From an uncultured Lachnospiraceae bacterium (GTDB taxonomy: Bacteria > Bacillota > Clostridia > Lachnospirales > Lachnospiraceae), in NCBI GenBank assembly GCA_902779505.1, contig CACZBZ010000012.1, positions 1-38,241 of the forward strand: a stretch of DNA of 38,241 nucleotides, given 5' to 3'. Below the pieces are notes generated by a model. That model did no database searches. It saw only the letters and a program-made list of their open reading frames with translations, and had not been told where the DNA came from. Both the position numbers and the translations under genes were made by a program. How positions within the stretch are numbered: the stretch's first letter is position 1; each line of letters opens with the position of its first letter. Below, piece after piece: positions 25,997 through 37,024 of this stretch.

Positions 25997-28900
25997 TCAG
26001 CGAATCTCTTTTACATACTGTCCTAATCGATTAGCATATGTGTTTACACGCTGCTCTAGCATCATGTCATTATTATCCGTCCACAGTTCACACTGAAGCA
26101 TTACTGTCTGAACGGCGTCTTCCATTCCATCAGGCGGATACTTATGTTCCTTTAAAAGTTTCTTAATCATCATACGCATCTTGGCACGTGCTGAATCTCT
26201 CTTCTGCCAGTCAATGGTACGATTTTTTCTTAACGCTTCTGCCAACTCCTTTGTAATAGCAATAAGTTCTTCATTCTCATAAAAGTCTTTTATTGCCTGT
26301 GGCTTTGTTAGCGCATCATAGAAAGCCAATTCATCCGCAGTAAGTCCCAATTCTTGACCTTCTTTTTGCGCCGCTTGAATCTGTTTTGCAAGATTCAACA
26401 TTTCTTCAATAACCTGCTCATTGGTAAGCATACCGTTTAAATAGCGATTCATCGCTTGCTGTATCATCTCACTAAATTTTTCAGACTTTACAACATTTGT
26501 ACGCTTATAAACAATAACCTGTTCAGAAATCAGTTTCTTTAACAGCTCAACTGCGAGGTTCTTTTCTTTCATCTTACCAATTTCTTCAAGGAACTTTGGA
26601 TCAAACAACGAAAAGTCACTATTAACATCAGAAAAAAGATTGATAACCCCAGTACTCTTAATACTCTGTTCTAATAGAGCATTGATTCGTGCATTCATTT
26701 CCGGTAAAGAAATCTTTTTCCCTTCACCTTTGTTCATCAAACGCATCACCAACACACGCACTGATTCAAAGAACGCTGCCTCTATACGAAGTGATTCTTC
26801 GGCCAACGAAGAGCAAAGTGATAATGCCTGGCGAAGTAATAGGGCTTCCTTTAGGAAATCTTCTCTTTCTCTCGAGCGATTCACATCAACAATAAAGTTT
26901 ACAGCTCCACTAATCGCCTTAGATCTTTCTAAATCAGTTCCAGTCATAAATAGTGAATAATCATATCCATGGAACAAGTCGCGACATACCGACAATTTCT
27001 CCAAGAATTTTGGATATGCAACTTTAGCAACATCTGTGTCTCCGTAATTCTTCTTATCACGCGTTGTGTAGTCATTCATTGCCTGTTTTAAAGCGGATGC
27101 GATACCAACATAATCAACAACAAGTCCGCCTTCTTTATCACCAAACACGCGGTTCACCCGGGCAATTGCCTGCATAAGGTTATATCCCTGCATCGGTTTA
27201 TACACATACATCGTAGCAAGAGATGGAACATCAAAACCTGTCAGCCACATATCAACTACAATTGCAATCTTAAGTGGGCTTTCATTATCCTTAAACTGTT
27301 TTGCAAGTTCATCACGATGCCGCTTATTGCCAATCACTTCTCTCCAGTCTTCCGGATCTTTATTACTCTCTGTCATAACAACAGCAACCTTATCCTGCCA
27401 ACCAGGGCGAAGTTCTAATATACGACGATAAATCTTTAAAGCAATCGCTCTTGAATATGCGACCACCATCGCTTTACCTGTAAGTAGGTTTTCACGATAA
27501 TTCTCGTAATGATCTAAAATATCATCTACAAGTGATGCTATCGTTTCGTCATTACCGAGGATTGCTTCCATTTGTCCGAGTTCTTTCTTACTCTTTTCAA
27601 TCACTTCCGGGTCAGCATTATTTGCCATAATGTCATATTCAGTATCAATTAAGTGAAGGGTCTCTTCATCCAATTTCAACTTAATAACACGACTCTCGTA
27701 ATATACCGGTCTGGTCGCACCATCCTCTACTGCTTGTGTCATATCATAAACATCAATGTACTCACCAAATACTTCTCTGGTGCTTCTATCCTTTAATGAA
27801 ATTGGTGTACCGGTAAATCCAATATAAGTAGCATTAGGTAAACTATTCCTGATAACTCTGGCTGTACCAATCTTTATTTTTCCTGTTTTAGCATCAACCG
27901 TTTCTTTTAAACCATATTGCCCACGGTGAGCCTCATCAGCCATAACAATTACATTTCTGCGCTCAGAGAGAGCATCCTCAGACTCTTCGAACTTCTGCAT
28001 GGTCGTAAAAATAATTCCGTTGGTCTGGCGACCATCCAACAGATTCTTCAAATGCTCCCTGCTCTCTGCGTGCATAGGTTCCTGACGAAGGAAATCCTTG
28101 CATTTAGCAAACTGTCCATAAAGCTGATCATCTAAATCATTACGGTCTGTAATAACTACAATTGTCGGGCTATCCAATGCTTCTTGCAAAAGATGAGCAT
28201 AGAAAACCATTGATAAAGATTTGCCAGATCCCTGAGTATGCCAAAAAACGCCACCCTTTCCATCGGTCTCTGTGGCATGTTTCGTTGATTCTATTGCTTT
28301 TTTAACTGCGAAATATTGATGATACCCAGCTAAAATCTTATATTGCTTTATCCCTTCATTAGAAAAACAGATAAAATTCTTTATGATATCAAGTAATCGA
28401 TTCTGTTCAAATATCCCCTCAAAGAATGTATCAAACTGAGCATACTGCGTATTCTCATAGTTGCCATCTTTCGTCTTCCACTCCATAAAGCGGTCTTCAC
28501 CGGAAGTAATAGTACCAGCTTTTGAAGTGAGATGATCACTCATAACGCAGATGCAATTGTATATAAACATGGATGGAATCTCATGCATATAATTACGAAT
28601 CTGTGTATATGCTTCCGACGCATCTGTCTCTTCCCTAGACGGAGATTTTAATTCCACCAAAACCACCGGGAGACCATTTACAAAAAGCAATACATCTGGT
28701 CGCTTATTACTGTTTTCTACAAACGTCCATTGATTTGCAACTATAAACGAATTCTTACTTATATTCTGATAATCCACCAAATATACTAGTCCAGAACGTT
28801 CTTCCCCATTTTCAAGATAACGAACCTCTATTCCGTGCTGTAAATAATCCATAAACACAGCATTCTTCTGCACAAGCTCGCCATTTTCAAAATTCTTAAG

Positions 28901-29098
28901 CTTATACAAAGCGTCTTCTATTCCATCTTCAGGCATAGCAGGATTTAGCCGATGCAAAGCATCAATTAGCTCCACATCGTAAATTGGACTTGAAAAATCT
29001 CTTTCAATATCAGGTCCGTACACGTGACAATATCCCATGTTTTGGAACAATTCGATTATTGAGTTTTCATAATCGGCTTCTGTAAAAAATGAAGACAT
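25997..29098 (-). CDS. hsdR: Type I restriction enzyme, R (translocase/nuclease) subunit
   Basis: 1,033 residues, the usual length. The N-terminal PD-(D/E)xK nuclease is visible: RPDVLLFVNGLPVVLVELK (D135, E149, K151). The SF2 motor follows, with Walker A TQGSGKS (288-294), DEAH (388-391) and FTGTPI, then the motif VI region around QAIARVNRVF. The C-terminal helical part should bind the M2S core. It cuts unmodified foreign DNA after translocation. The ATG is 1 base after the FRG gene stop, with GAGGGGG upstream, so FRG and hsdR are coupled. No disruption is visible; the enzyme looks active. Confidence 0.96.
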   Translation of the reverse strand: MSSFFTEADYENSIIELFQNMGYCHVYGPDIERDFSSPIYDVELIDALHRLNPAMPEDGIEDALYKLKNFENGELVQKNAVFMDYLQHGIEVRYLENGEERSGLVYLVDYQNISKNSFIVANQWTFVENSNKRPDVLLFVNGLPVVLVELKSPSREETDASEAYTQIRNYMHEIPSMFIYNCICVMSDHLTSKAGTITSGEDRFMEWKTKDGNYENTQYAQFDTFFEGIFEQNRLLDIIKNFICFSNEGIKQYKILAGYHQYFAVKKAIESTKHATETDGKGGVFWHTQGSGKSLSMVFYAHLLQEALDSPTIVVITDRNDLDDQLYGQFAKCKDFLRQEPMHAESREHLKNLLDGRQTNGIIFTTMQKFEESEDALSERRNVIVMADEAHRGQYGLKETVDAKTGKIKIGTARVIRNSLPNATYIGFTGTPISLKDRSTREVFGEYIDVYDMTQAVEDGATRPVYYESRVIKLKLDEETLHLIDTEYDIMANNADPEVIEKSKKELGQMEAILGNDETIASLVDDILDHYENYRENLLTGKAMVVAYSRAIALKIYRRILELRPGWQDKVAVVMTESNKDPEDWREVIGNKRHRDELAKQFKDNESPLKIAIVVDMWLTGFDVPSLATMYVYKPMQGYNLMQAIARVNRVFGDKEGGLVVDYVGIASALKQAMNDYTTRDKKNYGDTDVAKVAYPKFLEKLSVCRDLFHGYDYSLFMTGTDLERSKAISGAVNFIVDVNRSREREDFLKEALLLRQALSLCSSLAEESLRIEAAFFESVRVLVMRLMNKGEGKKISLPEMNARINALLEQSIKSTGVINLFSDVNSDFSLFDPKFLEEIGKMKEKNLAVELLKKLISEQVIVYKRTNVVKSEKFSEMIQQAMNRYLNGMLTNEQVIEEMLNLAKQIQAAQKEGQELGLTADELAFYDALTKPQAIKDFYENEELIAITKELAEALRKNRTIDWQKRDSARAKMRMMIKKLLKEHKYPPDGMEDAVQTVMLQCELWTDNNDMMLEQRVNTYANRLGQYVKEIR

Positions 29099-29099
29099 G

Positions 29100-30326
29100 T
29101 TACCCCCTCTTTTCAGTATTTATATCGTTAATTATGCTTCTCGCTATGGTTTCAGCATGATTCTTGTCATATCCATCAGATAATAAGGACTTAGTAATCA
29201 AAACCTTTATCTTGCTCAAAACACTATTTTTCTTATACCAATCCGTTTCTTTATTGCTTTCAAAAATATGGATTATATCATCTGCTTCATTAGCATCCTT
29301 AACATTTCTTTGAACAATATCCTGTATCATTTCATCGGAAATGTCTTTTAAAGTTTCGCTTTCCTGTTCATACGTTTTTATTAATTCAGCATATTTAACA
29401 AATCTGGCAACAGGCTTTTTATTTGATTCACAATCCATTTGAATATGCTTCAATTGATATTCTAATTCCGGAAACATACTGGATTCATTTACATTATACT
29501 TATCCAACTCCTTCCGGATTTTTTCCTTGTAATCATGCTCTACATAGAAAACAAAAGGATCGAATTCTTCTCGTAAATCACACTCTGCTTTTTCAATAAT
29601 TGCATTGTTCAAATCCAGCCCGTTACTTTTTATATTAAATTTCGCTGGCAACAAAAAAGCTCCGCTTTGCCTTGATAGTCGTTCGTTATTAATCGCTGGT
29701 AAAACCACATATGCATCCTGGAGTATTGATATAATTTTCTCCAATTGTCCTTCTCTTTTGAATTCTTCAGAAATAACACCTTCACTTTCAAGACTATCAA
29801 TCAACTTCCTTAAGGTGACTTCTCCGTTAAAATCAACTTTTGATATATATGAGATGGCCTTTACAACCCAATCATCATATTTCAAAGCAAAATCAACTTG
29901 TTTGAGATAGACGATTCCATTTGGATAACGTTTTTCTGTTTCAAACCCCTCCATCTGATACTCTTCTTCTTTATCACATAACTCGCATGCAAAATATAAT
30001 GCAACTAATGGATTTGATGTTAAATCAAGCAATCTTGTACTCAGACCATAATGTTGATACTTTTCCATAATCTCAAAAGTATCCCCCAGCGACCTGAATT
30101 CACGAGGAATTATACGAAGAGGTTCTGTCATCAATTCGTGCTCTACACTCAATATATCCTCTCGAAAAATACTTGGTCTAATATCCCAATAATCCGCAGC
30201 TTGTCCTCTAAAAAAGAACTTTGTTCCTACATTTTCCGGCTTTTCTAATATTTCATTTACCCTTTTGATGTATTGATCTACGGATGATATTGACTCCGCA
30301 TCGTTCATATACTCGTTACTATACAT
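29100..30326 (-). CDS. FRG-domain protein inside the type I RM operon
   Basis: 408 residues. The N-terminal FRG domain is clear: FFFRGQAADYWDIRPSIFRE (R40, G41), then QHYGLSTRLLDLTSNPLVAL and YFA (91-113). The C-terminal half is helical and charged, with no second recognised domain. FRG proteins are frequent in defence islands and within RM loci, but their activity is unsettled. It is tightly coupled to hsdR (1-base gap) and follows the 400-residue hsdS by 43 bases, with inversion repeat A in that gap. AAGG precedes the ATG. Possibly an accessory effector that depends on the RM complex. Confidence 0.88.
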   Translation of the reverse strand: MYSNEYMNDAESISSVDQYIKRVNEILEKPENVGTKFFFRGQAADYWDIRPSIFREDILSVEHELMTEPLRIIPREFRSLGDTFEIMEKYQHYGLSTRLLDLTSNPLVALYFACELCDKEEEYQMEGFETEKRYPNGIVYLKQVDFALKYDDWVVKAISYISKVDFNGEVTLRKLIDSLESEGVISEEFKREGQLEKIISILQDAYVVLPAINNERLSRQSGAFLLPAKFNIKSNGLDLNNAIIEKAECDLREEFDPFVFYVEHDYKEKIRKELDKYNVNESSMFPELEYQLKHIQMDCESNKKPVARFVKYAELIKTYEQESETLKDISDEMIQDIVQRNVKDANEADDIIHIFESNKETDWYKKNSVLSKIKVLITKSLLSDGYDKNHAETIARSIINDINTEKRG

Positions 30327-30350: not shown

Positions 30351-30372
30351 TAAACGATAATTTAGCGGCTTA
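30351..30372 (+). repeat. Inversion repeat A (hsdS cassette 1, outer end)
   Basis: 22 bases: core TAAACGATAATTTA followed by GCGGCTTA. It is a perfect inverted match to repeat D (34625-34646) and matches repeat B in inverted orientation over the first 16 bases. It overlaps the stop codon of the full-length hsdS. Confidence 0.9.
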
Positions 30373-31572
30373 GAGATCAAGGTTTGACACATCAATTTCG
30401 CCGGACATCAACCGAGGTAGTAAGGTGTCGCGTATCTGTGCAAGGCTCTGATTTTGAAGATTGTTATACTCAATCTGTTTTCGTAGAGGATAAAGTATAT
30501 TTTCCAAATCAGACATGACAGAAGTATCAAATATTGGAAATAACAATTTGGGGATATTTTTTACATTCAGCGCCCCCATAATTGTTCCCTCGTCAGTATT
30601 GTGCTGAATCTGTCTACGCATATGGCTTGATAGCAATACTGTTATGAAGTAAGCCTGCAGTCGCAAACCAGATTTCAACCGGATGCATGTCATGTTTCTT
30701 CCCATGGCAGCTTTCGTTCCATAAGGAGCTTGTGACACAGCACCGATACGACCAACATTAGTAATAACGCAATCACCTTCAATGATTTCACATTTACGGG
30801 TCCAATTTTCGTAATCAGCCTGTGAAATCATATACTTGCAAGCGGACATATCAAGAAAACCGTCATCACGGATATTGTCCAATTGAATAAGCTGATAGGT
30901 GCTATCTTCAATAGCTGAAGGCTTCTTAGAATGAAGGCAATCAATAACAACAGCAATATCTGAAAGAGGGTTAAGCTGGTATTGATATTGATCCATAAAA
31001 TGATAGAGGACACCTTGAGCCTGCTCAGCTAAATTATCGTTTATCTCCGTATTCAATTCTATTTTTTTATCAACACAACCTAATAATCCTACTATTTTCT
31101 TCTGTGTTTCTATACTTGGAATATCAATTTCGACATCCTCAATATCTGAAGGTTTTATCGATGGATATGCAGACGTACTCTGCTCTGCAATAGCGTGCAA
31201 CATTTCAACTACTGATTTTTGAGATAAAGCATAATACGCAAAATCAGGATCAAGTATGGTATCATCAACATCGATTACGGCAAATCCTGTAGAAACAAGA
31301 AAATTATCCGGTTGCGTTTTGATTATTCCTAAATGTCGCTGATTTGGTCGAACTGTCGAAAAAAGAATACTATTCTTTTTAACTTTTCTTCTTGCTCGGC
31401 TTGGTAATTTTTCATTTATAACATCTATATATTGCACCGATTCTATGCGATTGTCCGTAATATTTCCTGTATCTAAATAATTAACAAACTTCCACCCTTC
31501 TTTAGGCGAATAGGTATCTGCATTTGTTACACATGCATCGCCTAATCGTATTCTTCTCCAATCTTCCATCAT
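30370..31572 (-). CDS. hsdS: Type I restriction specificity subunit, full length (cassette 1 ON)
   Basis: 400 residues with the normal two-half design: TRD1 (about 1-155), a central conserved helix (about 156-190, QKKIVGLLGCVDKKIELNTE then INDNLAEQAQ), TRD2 (about 195-360) and a C-terminal conserved helix ending LAQIRDTLLPRLMSGEIDVS. It sets the bipartite DNA target of the HsdM/HsdR complex. Repeat B falls exactly on INDNLA (about 177-182) and repeat A on the stop codon, so the whole TRD2 half is an invertible block. Two adjacent ATGs (31572 and 31569) are both possible starts. It lies 9 bases after the recombinase gene. Confidence 0.93.
   Translation of the reverse strand: MMEDWRRIRLGDACVTNADTYSPKEGWKFVNYLDTGNITDNRIESVQYIDVINEKLPSRARRKVKKNSILFSTVRPNQRHLGIIKTQPDNFLVSTGFAVIDVDDTILDPDFAYYALSQKSVVEMLHAIAEQSTSAYPSIKPSDIEDVEIDIPSIETQKKIVGLLGCVDKKIELNTEINDNLAEQAQGVLYHFMDQYQYQLNPLSDIAVVIDCLHSKKPSAIEDSTYQLIQLDNIRDDGFLDMSACKYMISQADYENWTRKCEIIEGDCVITNVGRIGAVSQAPYGTKAAMGRNMTCIRLKSGLRLQAYFITVLLSSHMRRQIQHNTDEGTIMGALNVKNIPKLLFPIFDTSVMSDLENILYPLRKQIEYNNLQNQSLAQIRDTLLPRLMSGEIDVSNLDL
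31028..31043 (-). repeat. Inversion repeat B (inside hsdS, cassette 1 inner end)
   Basis: TAAACGATAATTTAGC on the minus strand, coding for the INDNLA segment of HsdS. Inverted relative to repeat A (16 of 16 bases) and to repeat C (14 bases); direct relative to D. Confidence 0.9.
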
Positions 31573-31581
31573 TCCACCATC

Positions 31582-32568
31582 CTATCCAATATATTTTCTA
31601 TGCGCAGTTTTTACATTACTCTGTTTAACCATTGCATATTGCAAAGTCGTATCTATTCTCTGATGCCCCAGAAGCTGCTGAAGTTGCTCTATAGGCATAC
31701 CTTTGTCAATTGCCATAGTAGCAAGCGTTCTTCTAAACTTATGCGGATGGACTTTATTAATTTCCAGTCTTTTCCCCATCTCTCGAAGTCTATTCTCTAT
31801 GCCACCTATTTTTATACGCTCATATGGTGTCCTCAATGTAACAAACAGCGCAGGATTATCATCCGAACGCCTTTTAAGATACTCCTGTAAATGAAGCTTC
31901 GTCCTGGCATCAAAATACACCATTCGTTCCTTATCACCTTTCCCAAACACAACGCATTCTCGCTCTGAAAAATCAATATCCTCCCGATTTAGCAAAACCA
32001 TTTCACCAACACGCATACCAGTTGATGCAAGCATATCAATCATAGCCAGATCACGTAATTCAGTACAATTATCACGCATATTTTCCAAGTCTTCATCAGA
32101 GTATGTCTCTTTAATGCTGCTTGCTGTCTTCACTTTATGAATACGGCGTACCGGACTTTTTACAATATAATCCTCGTCCTCAAGCCACGAAAAAAAGCTT
32201 GAGAGTATTCTTCTAATATTATCAATAGTTATTCGGCTAGAACCGTGTTCCTCTTGATATTCAGTCAAATACATGCGTAAATCTTCAGTCGTGATTCTAC
32301 ATGTATGCTTACCTAACGTGCTCAGCATTGCGTTTATAGTATTTTGATAATAGTCCAAAGTCTTCTCGGAACATCCCTCTATCCTTTTTGCTGCTATAAA
32401 TCTATCCAATAATGCACTGCTATTACTTTCACTTCTGCCTTGACTCGACTCTCTCAAATCATAGTGTGATAAAACTTGCCCAAGAGCGCGTTTGAGCTGA
32501 GTCATTTGCATATTATCGAGATTAGGAAGCATCCCCTCCATAACCTCATTAATAAAATCTTCTTTCAT
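31582..32568 (-). CDS. Tyrosine recombinase, probable HsdS-module invertase
   Basis: 328 residues from the ATG at 32568, chosen because GGAGG lies 6 bases upstream; a longer in-frame reading starts inside the leader hairpins. N-terminal SAM-like core-binding domain at about 45-145; catalytic domain with R186 in STGMRVGE, a Lys in GKGDKER, H276 and R279 in HPHKFRRT, H302 in LLGHQ and Y311 in TLQYA. R280 replaces the usual second His. XerC/D-like recombinases next to hsdS genes are known to invert specificity modules. Here it lies between the two cassettes flanked by the TAAACGATAATTTA repeats, which are its likely targets. Confidence 0.92.
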   Translation of the reverse strand: MKEDFINEVMEGMLPNLDNMQMTQLKRALGQVLSHYDLRESSQGRSESNSSALLDRFIAAKRIEGCSEKTLDYYQNTINAMLSTLGKHTCRITTEDLRMYLTEYQEEHGSSRITIDNIRRILSSFFSWLEDEDYIVKSPVRRIHKVKTASSIKETYSDEDLENMRDNCTELRDLAMIDMLASTGMRVGEMVLLNREDIDFSERECVVFGKGDKERMVYFDARTKLHLQEYLKRRSDDNPALFVTLRTPYERIKIGGIENRLREMGKRLEINKVHPHKFRRTLATMAIDKGMPIEQLQQLLGHQRIDTTLQYAMVKQSNVKTAHRKYIG

Positions 32569-32595
32569 GCCGTACCTCCATTTATTGGAGAACGA

Positions 32596-32642
32596 CACAG
32601 GCGACAGTTCCGCCAGTGTTTAATCCTACCGCCTATAGGATT
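32596..32642 (-). promoter_or_regulatory. Two leader hairpins ahead of the recombinase gene
   Basis: CACAGGCG/CGCCAGTG (32596-32618, one mismatch) and AATCCTA/TAGGATT (32622-32642) form two stem-loops in the 80 bases between the DUF1016 stop and the recombinase start. There is no T-run, so this is not a plain terminator. They could control recombinase expression or mRNA processing. Confidence 0.4.
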
Positions 32643-32648
32643 TAAGTT

Positions 32649-33734
32649 CTATTCTTCATTCTCTTTTTTCTGCAGATAGTAAAACTCTTTCTGTGCCTCT
32701 ATTTCTGCACGTAGTTCTTCCTCTGTCGGAAGATACAATTTATACTTTGAAGCAAATAATTGCTCATTCTCATGAAGCACAGAATATTTAGCAATATCTT
32801 CATCTGTATCCGCACAAAGTACAATCCCCAATGTTGGGTTATCATCCGGGGCCTTCTTCAAATCATCATACATACGAATATACATATCCATCTGGCCAAC
32901 ATCCTGATGCGTAATTTTATCTGTTTTTAAATCCACTAAGACAAAACATTTTAAAAGATAGTTATAAAACACCAGATCGATATAATAATCCTCCTTGTCG
33001 GTATGAATATGTTGCTGTCTCGCTACAAATGCATATCCTTTTCCAAGCTCCATAAGAAATTTCTGTAAGTTATCGATAATACACTGCTCAAGATCAGACT
33101 CATAGTAAGATGTATTTTCTTGCATTCCAAGGAACTCGGCTATAACAGGATTCTTAATAAATTCAAGCTTATCCTGTAATGGTTTTGTTAATTCCATCAT
33201 TTCATTTTCAACGCCAGTTTTATCCTGAGATTTCAACAATCGATAATAATACTGGGTTGAAATATTTCTACTCAATGTCCTAATACTCCAGGTCTGCTCA
33301 TATGCTTCCTTTGCATACCATTCGCGAGCATCCTTGTCATCAACCTGAAGCAAACGCTCATAATGAGACCACGACAGCAATTGTGCCGACAACGTTGGCA
33401 CAATTCCATTCCCTTCAGATTGTGCCGACAGTGTCGGCACAATCTCCGGAAATGTCTTATAAAACTGTAAAAACTTATAAATAGTTCTCTTACTAAAGCC
33501 TTTTCCATACTTTTCTGTAAGGGATTCTGAAAGTCTTTTAACAACTTCTAATCCGTATTCAGCCCTCTCCTCACCTTTTAATTCTTCCTCAGAAATTCGC
33601 TTTCCCAAAAGCCAATTTCTTAATACCAATGAAATATTAGCCGACTGAATCGCAACCCGCTGTGCACTCTCAATGATATTACACGCATCATCCATTATGT
33701 CATTTGTATTTGTATACCTTATTAAATCATTCAT
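32649..33734 (-). CDS. DUF1016 (YhcG-like) PD-(D/E)xK nuclease-family protein
   Basis: 361 residues. The N-terminal DUF1016_N region (about 15-165) contains the family's GLEVVKRLSESLTEKYGKGF and SWSHYERLLQV. The C-terminal nuclease-like domain has YYIDLVFYN (D253) and CFVLVDLKTDK (D268, K270), the PD-(D/E)xK core, then QMDMYIRMYDD. The sequence IVPTLSAQ occurs twice, at residues 98-105 and 111-118, encoded by two DNA palindromes 39 bases apart. Such genes are often found with type I RM systems; their function is not settled. The start at 33734 has AAGGA 8 bases upstream. In the present state of cassette 2 the DNA upstream of it is the antisense of an hsdS fragment. Confidence 0.9.
   Translation of the reverse strand: MNDLIRYTNTNDIMDDACNIIESAQRVAIQSANISLVLRNWLLGKRISEEELKGEERAEYGLEVVKRLSESLTEKYGKGFSKRTIYKFLQFYKTFPEIVPTLSAQSEGNGIVPTLSAQLLSWSHYERLLQVDDKDAREWYAKEAYEQTWSIRTLSRNISTQYYYRLLKSQDKTGVENEMMELTKPLQDKLEFIKNPVIAEFLGMQENTSYYESDLEQCIIDNLQKFLMELGKGYAFVARQQHIHTDKEDYYIDLVFYNYLLKCFVLVDLKTDKITHQDVGQMDMYIRMYDDLKKAPDDNPTLGIVLCADTDEDIAKYSVLHENEQLFASKYKLYLPTEEELRAEIEAQKEFYYLQKKENEE
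33380..33444. repeat. Two in-frame palindromic repeats within the DUF1016 gene
   Basis: Copy 1 at 33380-33404 (ATTGTGCCGAC then an imperfect complement) and copy 2 at 33418-33444 (a perfect 13-bp palindrome, GATTGTGCCGACA and its complement around one base). Period 39 bases. Both encode IVPTLSAQ, keeping the reading frame. Confidence 0.85.
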
Positions 33735-33767
33735 AAAACAAATCCTTTCATAATTATTTTTCGTGCA

Positions 33768-34424
33768 CTAAACGATAATTTACTTCAGCAAGCTCAGAGC
33801 ATTTTCACTCAGGAATTCATCAACATAGACTGTATACCTGAAGGTTGGAAAGAAAGCTCTTTACTTGGTATAGCCGATTATCTTAACGGTCTCGCCATGC
33901 AAAAGTTTCGTCCTAAAGATGATGAACAGGGACTTCCAGTTTTAAAAATAAAGGAACTTCGGCAGGGCTCATGTGACGCCAGCAGCGAGCTATGCTCTCC
34001 ATCGATCAAACCTGAGTATATAGTCCATGATGGTGATGTAATTTTCTCGTGGTCAGGTAGTCTTCTTGTCGATCTGTGGTGCGGTGGTACATGCGGCTTA
34101 AATCAGCATCTGTTCAAAGTAACGTCGAAAACTTATGATAAATGGTTTTACTATGCATGGACTAATCATCATCTTCAAAAATTTGTTGCTATAGCAGCTG
34201 ATATGGCAACCACCATGGGACATATAAAACGTGAAGAGCTCTCGAAAGCGGTTGTTCTCATTCCTTCACAATCAGATTACGATCGCATAGGAGGTTTATT
34301 GGCTCCCATATATGATCTCGTGATAGCAAATCGTATCGAAAATCGAGAACTTGCTGCATTACGAGATGAATTGCTCCCGCAGTTAATGTCCGGACAGCTT
34401 GATGTTTCAGAGGTGGAAATATGA
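33768..34424 (+). pseudogene. hsdS: hsdS 3'-half (central helix, TRD2, C-terminal helix), start-less cassette 2
   Basis: 219 codons open in frame on the plus strand but with no usable start: the homologous reading begins LNDNLLQQAQSIFTQEF, then CIPEGWKESSLLGIADYLNG, which is the middle of an HsdS protein, and ends LAALRDELLPQLMSGQLDVS. The first ATG (33897) lies inside the TRD and is not a true start. It begins on repeat C and faces away from its head gene at 34624-35070. Inversion between C and D would join it in frame to that head (VNDNL to LQQAQ). It is therefore a silent cassette in the present state, not decay. Confidence 0.88.
33769..33782 (+). repeat. Inversion repeat C (cassette 2, hsdS-tail end)
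   Basis: TAAACGATAATTTA on the plus strand at the 5' end of the silent hsdS tail. Inverted relative to repeat D over 14 bases and to repeat B; direct relative to A. Confidence 0.88.
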
Positions 34425-34627
34425 AAGAAAAAGAGTTAAAGATCCCTTTCAATGCACCCCTTAATGTTCAGGATACCGAGTTACAGACTTATGGATGTCG
34501 TCAGAATAATCCTGATATCTGCGGAAATAACGGTATGTCTGATATCTGCGCCTTCGTCTGCGATGATGGTATCTGCAAGAAACCTTCACGAGCATGGAAA
34601 CGACAGTATCAGAAATTAAAAGGTTAA
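34421..34627 (+). CDS. Small cysteine-rich protein carried in cassette 2
   Basis: 68 residues; the ATG overlaps the stop of the hsdS tail (ATGA) and has GAGGTGG upstream. Five cysteines are arranged GCRQNNPDIC, SDIC, AFVC and DGIC, followed by a basic tail (KPSRAWKRQYQKLKG). This could bind a metal such as zinc or an iron-sulphur cluster. Its stop codon lies within repeat D, so it moves with the invertible segment and would be read in the RM operon only after inversion. Not a named family to my knowledge; possibly conserved beside hsdS in related species. Function unknown. Confidence 0.7.
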   Translation: MKEKELKIPFNAPLNVQDTELQTYGCRQNNPDICGNNGMSDICAFVCDDGICKKPSRAWKRQYQKLKG

Positions 34628-35070
34628 GCCGCTAAATTATCGTTTACCTTTGTATTTAATTGTATTTTTTTATCCAATGCAGATAGTATACTTGCGATTT
34701 TTTGTTGGATCACAAAATCAGGAACATTAACCTCAATATTGTTAAGAATATTCTGCGTTAACAACGGTTGAGACGTTCCAATCTGACGTTCATTTAATCT
34801 AAGTCTTTTTAGTAGATAAAACAAATATTCTAAATCAGCACCATCTTTAGCCTGAACTATTATGGCATTATCAGACACCCAGCACTTTTCTCTTTCCAAA
34901 TATACGCTTCCACAATATACTCCGACACGTCCTATAATAATGCAATTTTCCATATTATAATCATCTGTGTAACCTAGAATTCCATTTCCACCATACACTG
35001 GATAATTGCCTTCATTCTTTGGTCTTTTTTTACCGTTTGAAAAATTAGCGTATTCCATTAAAATACTCAT
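34624..35070 (-). CDS. hsdS: hsdS 5'-half (TRD1 plus start of central helix), cassette 2 OFF
   Basis: 148 residues, about one third of an HsdS. TRD1 reads EYANFSNGKKRPKNEGNYPV then YGGNGILGYTDDYN, and the protein reaches IQQKIASILSALDKKIQLNTKV followed by NDNLAA and stop. The stop is created by repeat D (GCGGCTTAA), not by the hsdS sequence proper. GGGAG precedes the ATG by 9 bases. It lies directly downstream of hsdM and the frameshifted gene, the normal place for the expressed hsdS. A half-size HsdS can sometimes dimerise and give a palindromic target; otherwise this product is inactive until the cassette flips. Confidence 0.88.
   Translation of the reverse strand: MSILMEYANFSNGKKRPKNEGNYPVYGGNGILGYTDDYNMENCIIIGRVGVYCGSVYLEREKCWVSDNAIIVQAKDGADLEYLFYLLKRLRLNERQIGTSQPLLTQNILNNIEVNVPDFVIQQKIASILSALDKKIQLNTKVNDNLAA
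34625..34646 (-). repeat. Inversion repeat D (cassette 2, hsdS-head end)
   Basis: Reverse complement of repeat A over all 22 bases (30351-30372). On the minus strand it encodes NDNLAA-stop at the end of the hsdS head; on the plus strand it contains the stop codon of the 68-residue protein. Confidence 0.9.
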
Positions 35071-35076
35071 TTGGTT

Positions 35077-35507
35077 TTACTCCCTTACTTCAATAATAAA
35101 ATACGGACTCATACTACTTTTGGAAACTTCTGCCAACGGCCTTTGAGATGACGCCACAACACACTTGCTTAAACAACCTTTGCAGCAGGAACTATACTAT
35201 TAACTTTAAACCAAGTTTTGAACGCACTAGCATTATCGCGATAATACTCTGGAATACATTCCTTTTCAGGAATTTCATGCTGAATTTTATCCAAGCGTGC
35301 CCAGTATCTTCCCGTTTTTCCTCTATGGATTAACAAAATTTGCGGATTGTCACATTTCATAATTTCATCCATAACCTTATTGGACACAGCATTTTCCAGC
35401 TTTCCACACCAAACATATCCATATTCGTTTATTACAGCATTATGTGCGGCAATAGTTCCCTTCTCCGGTGCAAAATTATCCGCAAAACGTAGCGCTATCG
35501 TTTTCAT
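35077..35507 (-). pseudogene. Frameshifted gene between hsdM and hsdS (possible PUA/EVE-like protein)
   Basis: The intact frame gives 112 residues (MKTIALRFADNFAPEKGT ... ILLIHRGKTGRYWARLDKIQ ... FKTWFKVNSIVPAAKVV, stop at 35169). In another frame the DNA continues as GCLSKCVVASSQRPLAEVSK then SSMSPYFIIEVRE, stopping at 35077, 6 bases before the hsdS-head ATG and overlapping its ribosome site exactly as an operon gene should. One missing base near AAAGG (about 35175-35180) explains both, giving a 143-residue parent. The H-G-K ... YW ... TWF pattern loosely recalls PUA/EVE-like folds that sense modified bases, but this is a guess. It starts 8 bases after hsdM. Confidence 0.7.
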
Positions 35508-35515
35508 ATTTATTC

Positions 35516-37024
35516 CTATAGTTCAAATCCTATTGCTGTTAACTTTCTTTTTATCTCATCTTCCAATTCATGAGACTTTGCAAACATATCCGAAAGTTCT
35601 GATGTCAATCTTCCCATCTTCTCTTCAAATGGTTCTCCATCATCTTTCTGCTCTTTAATGCCAACATATCGTCCTGGTGTAAGAATATAATCCTGCTTTG
35701 CAATATCCTCTAAAGATGCTACTGCACAGAATCCCTTTTCATCTGCAAGTTCACCATTCTGAAATGCTTCAAAAGTATCAGCCAATTTCTGGATATCATC
35801 ATCCATAAAATCTCTATGCTTACGATCAACCATATGACCCATTTCACGAGCATCAATAAAGAGAGTTTTTCCTTTTTGTTTCTTTCCCTTGGTTATAAAC
35901 CAGAGCGTAACCGGGATCGTCACGCTATAGAACAACTGCGTTGGCATCGCAACAATGCCTTCTATCAAATCATCCTCAATGATTCTCTGACGAATGTCAC
36001 CTTCACCACTAGACTGTGTAGAAAGAGCTCCATTTGCAAGTACCAATCCGATTTTTCCGTTTGGTGCCAAGTGGTGAATCATGTGCTGAATCCATGCATA
36101 GTTGGCATTTCCTGCTGGTGGAATACCATATTTCCATCTCACATCATCAAGAAGTTTATCCTGATTCCATGGATGATAGTTAAATGGTGGATTTGCAAGA
36201 ATAAAGTCAGCCTTAAGTGTTGGATGCAAATCATTAGTAAAGGTATCTGCCTGATAAGGGCCAAAGTCTGCATCAATGCCACGAATAGCCATATTTATCT
36301 TTGCCATCTTCCAAGTATCTGCATTCGCTTCCTGTCCATATACAGAAATATGCCCCCTCTTTCCGGAATGCGCTTCGATAAATTTTGCACTTTGTACAAA
36401 CATACCGCCAGAACCACAACAGCAATCGTACACACGGCAATTATCAAACGGCTTCAATACAGAAACCAATGTCTTTACTACACTGGACGGGGTATAGAAT
36501 TCTCCTCCACCTACTCCTTCTTTTTCAGCAAACTGAGCAATACAATATTCGTAAGTTCTACCGAGGAGATCTTCACTTTCCTCTGCATCGCTCATATCAA
36601 TGTCATTGGTAAAGATATCTACCACATCACCGAGGACTCGCTTATCCAAATCTGGGCTGGCATAATTCTTAGGCAATACATTTTTTAAAGTCTTGTTTTC
36701 ATCTTCAATGGCGCGCATAGCATTATCAATAATTGTTCCTATTTCCGGTGTATGCGCTGCAGACGCAATGGTACTCCATCTTGCTGCTTCCGGAACGAAG
36801 AAAACATTCTCCATGGTATAAGCATCGCGATCATCTTCAAACCCATCGCCCTCATCTATTAGTTCCTGATATCTTCGATCAAATGCCGCAGAAATATAGC
36901 GCAAAAAAATCAATCCTATGATTACTTTTCTGTATTCTGCTGCAGGGATATGTCCCCAAAGAACACACGCTGCATCCCACAATTCTTTTTCGAAGCCGAT
37001 ATTTGCATTGGTCTTATCTGCCAT
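35516..37024 (-). CDS. hsdM: Type I restriction-modification DNA methyltransferase, M subunit
   Basis: 502 residues. SAM-binding motif I is DCCCGSGGMF (from D200) and catalytic motif IV is ANPPFNY (NPPF 278-281), as in N6-adenine methyltransferases. The N-terminal helical domain (LWDAACVLWGHIPAAEYRKV) and C-terminal LTPGRYVG are typical HsdM. With HsdS it methylates the host target and forms the restriction core with HsdR. The second residue of motif I is Cys rather than the more usual Pro, within family variation. Its stop overlaps the TAGGAA ribosome site of the next gene. GGAGG precedes the ATG. Confidence 0.96.
   Translation of the reverse strand: MADKTNANIGFEKELWDAACVLWGHIPAAEYRKVIIGLIFLRYISAAFDRRYQELIDEGDGFEDDRDAYTMENVFFVPEAARWSTIASAAHTPEIGTIIDNAMRAIEDENKTLKNVLPKNYASPDLDKRVLGDVVDIFTNDIDMSDAEESEDLLGRTYEYCIAQFAEKEGVGGGEFYTPSSVVKTLVSVLKPFDNCRVYDCCCGSGGMFVQSAKFIEAHSGKRGHISVYGQEANADTWKMAKINMAIRGIDADFGPYQADTFTNDLHPTLKADFILANPPFNYHPWNQDKLLDDVRWKYGIPPAGNANYAWIQHMIHHLAPNGKIGLVLANGALSTQSSGEGDIRQRIIEDDLIEGIVAMPTQLFYSVTIPVTLWFITKGKKQKGKTLFIDAREMGHMVDRKHRDFMDDDIQKLADTFEAFQNGELADEKGFCAVASLEDIAKQDYILTPGRYVGIKEQKDDGEPFEEKMGRLTSELSDMFAKSHELEDEIKRKLTAIGFEL

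Follow-up and report, generated by a model that had tools for sequence, protein, structure and literature searches.

The window analysed here is an entire contig of 38,241 bp (CACZBZ010000012.1, from an uncultured Lachnospiraceae bacterium; the genome assembly is incomplete, 2.22 Mb and 83.7% complete), and it carries a type I restriction-modification locus in which the specificity gene hsdS is divided into parts around a tyrosine recombinase gene. Along the minus strand the order is hsdM, a PUA-like gene, hsdS head 2, a reversed hsdS tail 2 together with an open reading frame (ORF) of 68 amino acids, a DUF1016/YhcG nuclease gene, the recombinase gene, the complete hsdS1, an FRG gene and hsdR (Table 1). 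A head encodes the first and a tail the second target-recognition domain (TRD). Judged by its sequence, the locus is an SsuCC20p-type system, the layout of which is known already. We give a probability of roughly three in four to its being a specificity switch of this type in which tails would be exchanged in pairs, one complete hsdS would be present and the unused head would be tagged for ClpXP. The additions to the known system are its breadth, a quantitative one-ON rule with exceptions, a plasmid pair with a completed double exchange, and a pattern in the end peptides.

The 14-bp sequence TAAACGATAATTTA is found exactly four times in the window (sites A to D). A chance origin of the repeat was rejected, as none of 100 shuffles of the window contained an exact copy. 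The initial annotation had placed these copies at hsdS module boundaries, and the reading frames agree with that placement. The 14-mer encodes (I/V/L)NDNL midway along the long central helix of HsdS, and the second site of each pair is located shortly after the tail cassette ends. Site B codes for INDNL, residues 177-181 of hsdS1, inside the predicted central helix (154-195) of an AlphaFold2 model with two long helices and a mean predicted local distance difference test score of 84.9 (26 sequences). The best Foldseek matches of this model in the PDB are the HsdS subunits 3okg, 5ybb, 7vru and 1yf2. Inverted matches extend over 17 bp for A/B, 14 bp for C/D, 22 bp for A/D and 28 bp at 86% for B/C, which bears out the earlier claim that A/B and C/D are inverted pairs and that A and D match over 22 bases.

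The 22-bp arm shared by A and D contains both the hsdS1 stop codon and the stop of the small ORF in cassette 2; at D, one strand gives LAA* to head 2 and the other gives the small-ORF stop (the asterisk marks a stop codon). In the OFF reading at both A and D, a head continues for two codons after NDNL and then stops, giving NDNLAA*, or INDNLAA* at A. Cassette 1 had been called ON and cassette 2 OFF, and this is what the frames show: hsdS1 is complete, tail 2 is open over 217 amino acids and has no start, and head 2 ends just beyond site D as ...VNDNLAA*. The tyrosine recombinase expected between the cassettes was likewise confirmed as a gene with a phage-integrase domain. Its residues R196, K220, H286, R289, H312 and Y321, which we take to be the catalytic ones, are unchanged across 13 aligned sequences (that of the window and 12 relatives). 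Confusion of the assembly by a second copy of the locus was excluded: the genome has one full match, and the other match is a 29-bp local palindrome.

Table 1. Features of the hsdS locus in the window, in order of position
Feature	Position	Strand	Evidence or remark
hsdR, type I restriction subunit	25997..29098	-	NCBIfam hsdR 607.5 bits (cutoff 284.55)
FRG-domain gene, cargo between hsdS1 and hsdR	29100..30326	-	Pfam FRG 1.7e-17
Site A, tail-end type	core 30351-30364; core + arm 30351..30372	+ (core)	arm holds hsdS1 stop codon
hsdS1, complete (head 1 + tail 1), ON	30370..31572	-	Pfam Methylase_S; AlphaFold2 model; Foldseek
Site B, tail-start type, in central HsdS helix codons	31030-31043	-	exact core
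Tyrosine recombinase, 338 amino acids	31582..32598	-	Pfam Phage_integrase 9.1e-31; NCBIfam XerA-type 243.8 bits (cutoff 220)
DUF1016/YhcG-type PDDEXK nuclease gene, cargo between cassette 2 and recombinase	32649..33734	-	Pfam YhcG_C 5.1e-53
Site C, tail-start type, beginning of start-less tail 2	33769-33782	+	exact core
hsdS tail 2 (second TRD), no start codon, OFF orientation	33771..34424	+	Pfam Methylase_S 6.3e-06
68-amino-acid Cys-containing ORF inside tail cassette 2	34421..34627	+	tblastn matches in 14/127 loci (window counted)
hsdS head 2 (first TRD), OFF	34624..35070	-	Pfam Methylase_S 1.1e-21
Site D, tail-end type	core 34633-34646; core + arm 34625..34646	- (core)	exact core, 22-bp match to A
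Small PUA-like protein gene, between hsdM and head 2	35169..35507	-	Pfam Pua-like 8.9e-16
hsdM, type I DNA methyltransferase subunit	35516..37024	-	Pfam N6_Mtase 5.5e-106 + HsdM_N

SsuCC20p of Streptococcus suis was first described in 2016 (PMC5198162) and studied in 2023 (PMC10790761). According to the 2023 paper, switching and the change of the methylome depend on xerD, four alleles exist, and a single complete hsdS is present in every complete S. suis assembly examined; that paper reports the system from streptococci only. The window shares with SsuCC20p hsdM, two heads, two tails, a central xerD-type recombinase and hsdR, as well as 14-bp repeats of the form TAAAY-N4-ATTTA (TAAATCATCATTTA there, TAAACGATAATTTA in the window). 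Its sites have the order + - recombinase + -, one hsdS is complete, and hsdM lies upstream and hsdR downstream. The recombinase falls into the same family if the S. suis protein is represented by those of locus L129 and of L. cremoris plasmids, where the S. suis repeat is found and the recombinases are relatives at 58-59% identity. The hsdS inversion switch suggested initially is supported as one of SsuCC20p type. The arrangement, which had been regarded as the notable part, is that of SsuCC20p itself, and both site pairs were found at 84 of 174 distinct recombinase loci (one pair at 29, none at 61). Unlike SsuCC20p, the window adds the DUF1016, FRG and PUA-like genes (matched in 7, 5 and 2 of 127 loci, respectively, the window counted) and the small ORF in tail 2.

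Two pneumococcal systems are also related. In SpnIII (ivr/cod) of Streptococcus pneumoniae, with PsrA/CreX, hsdS is likewise inverted by a locus-encoded tyrosine recombinase. SpnIII has unequal repeat pairs of 15, 85 and 333 bp (cited in PMC10790761) and expresses only the hsdM-adjacent hsdS. In the window a single site sequence is used four times and the complete hsdS lies on the downstream side of the recombinase, so by these features the locus is not of the SpnIII type. In SpnIV (tvr) of S. pneumoniae a recombinase also moves TRD segments between short repeats, but it uses direct repeats with excision and reintegration instead of inverted pairs (PMC6265443).

Loci for comparison were collected by a recombinase scan of genome contigs, which gave at least 582 stretches with at least 563 relatives. 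The best 80 were kept and formed, together with 22 loci from viral contigs and the window, a discovery set of 103 loci. Sites were searched with the 14-mer of the window first and then with the general form TAAAY-N4-ATTTA in combination with reading-frame tests; one core was detected per locus, so that loci with mixed cores would escape. A fresh set of 103 loci was then added (35 from a viral scan with alignment and 68 genome stretches), of which 32 were duplicates and 71 distinct. The scoring rules were those of the discovery set except for a smaller contig-end margin, which later made L068 scorable too. The resulting 78 scorable loci exclude those with slots cut off or unclear, as well as plasmid and phage loci, for which 12 of 17 matches were taken and 9 could be scored. 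Sister-recombinase loci having no inverted pair were left out of the state tallies. Many of the compared genomes are metagenome assemblies, and organism labels are those of the depositors. The single centre shared by the four sites in 84 of 84 loci is partly given by construction and was not used as evidence.

In the + - recombinase + - layout the reading frame of a head enters the first site of each pair, and the tail placed between the two sites can have either orientation. We coded a tail as f when in line with its head and as r when reversed, with the upstream slot given first and the downstream slot second. For the discovery set, 61 of 103 loci could be scored (rf 29, fr 29, ff 2, rr 1), and for the fresh set 16 of 71 (fr 8, rf 7, rr 1). 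Pooled, the tails are antiparallel in 73 of 78 scorable loci (fr 37, rf 36), and antiparallel tails mean exactly one complete hsdS. The cassettes, which the initial annotation had described as two separate ON/OFF units, are coupled instead. On a FastTree tree of the recombinases the fr and rf states are scattered, and the 73 loci require 26 or more changes between them. A looser count based on two heads gave one ON in 84 of 93 loci, with L084 undecided and 80 unscored. Among the plasmid and phage loci 8 of the 9 scorable ones are antiparallel, L258 being nearly identical to L255.

Enumeration from the window state gives 16 arrangements; in 4 of them the tails are antiparallel and the recombinase block is unflipped. 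These 4, and no others, can be reached by paired exchanges; every one has a single complete hsdS, and between them they cover all head-tail combinations. The pairings A/B, C/D, B/C and A/D listed in the initial annotation are formally right, but an A/D inversion alone leaves the specificity unchanged. The direct-repeat pairs A/C and B/D were missing from that list, and their joint use may swap the tails without inversion. The 78 loci split into 67 antiparallel and unflipped, 5 flipped, 5 parallel and 1 unclear; the 67 of 78 compare with 25% under free single inversions (P 1.6e-29). The flipped calls are independently supported, because the side of hsdM switches with the block orientation: where hsdM is matched, it lies upstream of the recombinase in 91 of 91 unflipped loci and on the downstream side in 6 of 6 flipped loci, the sixth of which (L055) is cut off on one side and lies outside the 78.

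The explanation that competes best with paired exchange, and which we hold to be nearly an even bet, is that single inversions occur freely and that selection acts against cells in which both hsdS genes or neither are complete. An ON/ON state may leave sites under-methylated and an OFF/OFF state gives no protection, and parallel states do occur at low frequency. However, each of the 8 arrangements with a flipped block likewise has a single complete hsdS, and selection for one ON gene does not by itself account for the scarcity of flipped loci (5 of 78, none of the 5 with parallel tails). Disfavoured transcription of the flipped block could explain this scarcity; such selection is possible, as are sequential rather than paired events.

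Rearrangements were found by comparing closely related loci. L085 and L091 are 93.6-99.9% identical over most of their shared 19 kb. They differ in the upstream tail segment (878 bp), which is 99.8% identical but inverted, its breakpoints falling at the sites; a different tail, in the opposite orientation, fills the downstream slot. For L036 and L113, the 1.7-kb recombinase block is 99.1% identical, the adjoining 880-bp tail segment is inverted at 99.9%, and the hsdM side is only 76% identical. Tail 2 of the window has an 878-bp counterpart in L045, 84% identical and bounded by sites, which is in the opposite, joined (ON) orientation. The completed double exchange is seen between the closed Lactococcus plasmids pJM2A (L255) and pUCCL627F (L256), which carry TAAATCATCATTTA and are 98-100% identical outside the tails: both tails have swapped slot and are inverted at 100% identity, with the recombinase unflipped. 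The plasmid pJM1A (L257) has a single tail type in both slots, the upstream copy being inverted relative to pJM2A, a state that perhaps arose from exchange between plasmid copies. The pJM1A stretch lacks the second tail type of pJM2A.

In draft genomes, a contig end close to the recombinase falls within 130 bp of a site in 11 of 21 cases, compared with 8% expected; this limit was chosen after several near-site ends had been seen, and the count is confined to loci, compiled manually, in which a contig edge lies close to the recombinase. Clustering of contig ends at the sites is expected if the sequenced population holds both orientations.

Readings across the tail-end sites were made for 201 identified slots, of which 7 were dropped because of a stop before the fifth codon, leaving 194 readings from 112 loci. 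These end in Ala-Ala or Val-Ala in 164 cases, in another residue followed by Ala in 8, in Ala-Val/Glu-Val-like pairs in 6 (5 of them of canonical length) and otherwise in 16; a few broken tails (for example L092 and L174) are included and scored as misses. Ala/Val-Ala was observed for 140 of 162 ends of canonical length and for 24 of 32 of unusual length. At canonical length the pattern could be due to conservation of the DNA, so the ends of unusual length carry the information. Codon use varies among the latter, which include four extensions of 54 codons with the end SSLLAA* (Lachnoanaerobaculum), one of 51 codons with STAA*, and others of 21 and 28 codons with RPAA* and RRAA*. Several of the 24 cases are interrelated and hence represent fewer than 24 independent events, and as tails move between loci the end sites are not fully independent. 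Two controls were used. In the two other frames from the same start points, 1 of 65 readings ends in Ala/Val-Ala (65 of 388 having at least 5 codons), and of 205 complete tails none does. Loci of the TAAATCATCATTTA type follow the same pattern: L129 ends in INHHLAA*, and L. cremoris ends are LAA or LVA. Among the plasmid and phage loci, LAA or LVA accounts for 15 of the 20 ends.

The OFF product of the window, with NLAA* readings at A and D, also ends in a nonpolar residue followed by Ala/Val-Ala-COOH. For the E. coli SsrA tag, the terminal Ala-Ala-COO- is the most important element for ClpXP (PMC7652416). The genome of the window has two ClpX matches above the family cut-off, and the tag of its transfer-messenger RNA reads ANTELAVA*. 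Work on tag variants has found Val at the next-to-last position to be tolerated. We propose on the basis of these readings that an OFF half-HsdS may be marked for ClpXP degradation by its SsrA-like end. When truncated to one TRD, HsdS can form dimers with itself and then recognise palindromic motifs (PMC12429846), and self-pairing of half-HsdS is also cited for type IC systems in PMC10030836. ClpXP is known to control HsdR in EcoKI (PMC4231737). No report of tagging of a silent HsdS half was found in the open-licence titles and abstract openings searched, an absence that carries little weight. The available text of PMC10790761 has no mention of degradation, proteolysis, Clp, C-terminal or stop codon, and that of PMC5198162 none of degradation.

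Alternatively, GCGGCT beside the tail-end site could be a DNA element, such as a recombinase arm or a directionality signal, with Ala-Ala as a by-product. GCG GCT is the commonest form, common to 94 of 162 canonical ends, and in the window the last T of GCGGCT together with TA also makes the stop of the tail on the opposite strand. We nevertheless regard this as less likely than not, because Ala/Val-Ala is kept at 8, 10, 11, 13, 21, 28, 51 and 54 codons from the core and with other codons (such as GCT GCT, GCC GCC and GTA GCC), in 24 of 32 unusual-length ends, and the tail-start sites inspected are without GCGGCT.

Taking the states and the end peptides together, we infer that the recombinase of the window performs the exchange and that exchanges occur in pairs. 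Four copies of one site bound two HsdS tails, which would be interchangeable, with a start site in the central-helix codons and an end site past the cassette, with one head following hsdM and the other following the recombinase. When the recombinase moves and inverts the tails, one head would almost always get a read-through tail and the other would meet a tail-end site. Pairing A/B with C/D, A/D with B/C, or A/C with B/D would yield the four head-tail combinations. The tail-end site would append -(Leu)-Ala/Val-Ala to the unused head, and removal of this half-subunit by ClpXP would avoid self-pairing and hence an unwanted palindromic specificity as in some type I systems. The joint claim, that the site is a conditional degron and that pairwise exchange at four identical sites leads to four states, nearly always with one live specificity and with the other half-protein destroyed, is tentative, and we would put it somewhat short of even odds.

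A change of specificity exposes a restriction system to two hazards, a gap in protection and stray half-enzymes, both of which it has to avoid. The loci compared here suggest that pairwise exchange keeps one specificity live and that the unused half bears a probable destruction tag. If this is true, DNA rearrangement would be what switches the degron on, and the mechanism of SsuCC20p, so far left open (double or intramolecular recombination), would be given a concrete prediction of four states, not sixteen.

Several results weigh against paired exchange with tagging of the unused head. Tails are parallel in 5 of the 78 loci (L068, L083, L103, L114, L140), the exceptions in the looser count are OFF/OFF (L036, L103, L140, L200) or ON/ON (L068, L083, L098, L114, L149), and the closed Ligilactobacillus salivarius plasmid pBNS11 has both hsdS OFF. 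The block is flipped in a further 5 of the 78, so single inversions do occur or persist. Recombinase matches in 19 same-genus genomes were weak (best E about 1e-17), which gives no within-genus comparison of states. Exceptional ends include AV, EV, TD, AD, AT, AR and AS, 5 of the 20 plasmid and phage ends are LIA, LVV or LAS, and the sharing of GCG GCT means that part of the Ala-Ala conservation could be at the DNA level. In E. coli, no methylation resulted from an N-terminal half of the S. xylosus HsdS (PMC10030836), and half-subunits are thus not always active. Finally, head 2 of the window is short at its N-terminus, as its Methylase_S match begins at model position 23 of 168, and the HsdS made with it may be weak.

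About 22 N-terminal Methylase_S model positions are missing from head 2 and cargo genes sit between the parts, as would be expected if the switch were a relic here and hsdS1 the sole working specificity. This is improbable, since the recombinase is open with conserved residues, the four sites are intact and identical, and tail 2 is open and has its 84% homologue ON in L045. Least credible of all are two independent ON/OFF invertons that share one recombinase and each flip alone: each cassette does have an inverted pair of its own at its borders, and both-ON or neither-ON states exist (5/78), but the idea was rejected on the joint tail states, because about half of the unflipped loci would be expected to be parallel, not the 5 of 72 observed, and the two antiparallel states are equally common (37 and 36).

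The system is widespread, with relatives of the recombinase in Bacillota, Fusobacteriota and an archaeal plasmid, and also in assemblies that bear the labels Succinivibrionaceae, Ruminobacter and Spirochaetia. Neither the Fusobacterium nor the archaeal loci showed the four-site layout. The archaeal plasmid is Methanosphaera pNP174 (L259), with a recombinase at 57% identity, and its 13-kb stretch showed no annotated restriction gene and no repeated site. Sister recombinases (34-78% identity, all but three 45-66%) had no inverted pair at 47 of the 71 fresh loci, and 15 of these 47 carry sites of this kind as direct repeats on either side of the recombinase. At L179, L180, L182, L184, L186 and L224 (58-63% recombinase identity to that of the window) the direct-repeat sites span the recombinase and have two different centres, for example CAAATCGAGATTTA and CAAATTGAAATTTG at L180, and this suggests that TRD segments are swapped there without inversion. 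L182 has a 577-bp identical direct repeat at -2469 and +1014 from the recombinase; it covers both site types, which means that the same segment is present at both positions. Three heads or cassettes per locus were seen in L072, L081 and L114, and the extra copy in L072 and L081 resembles a tandem duplicate.

Two minor features lie within cassette 2 and beside it. The 68-amino-acid ORF, for which no match was found in Pfam or NCBIfam, would flip together with the tail cassette. The DUF1016 gene holds two 25-bp near-palindromic copies, 39 bp apart, at 33380-33443.

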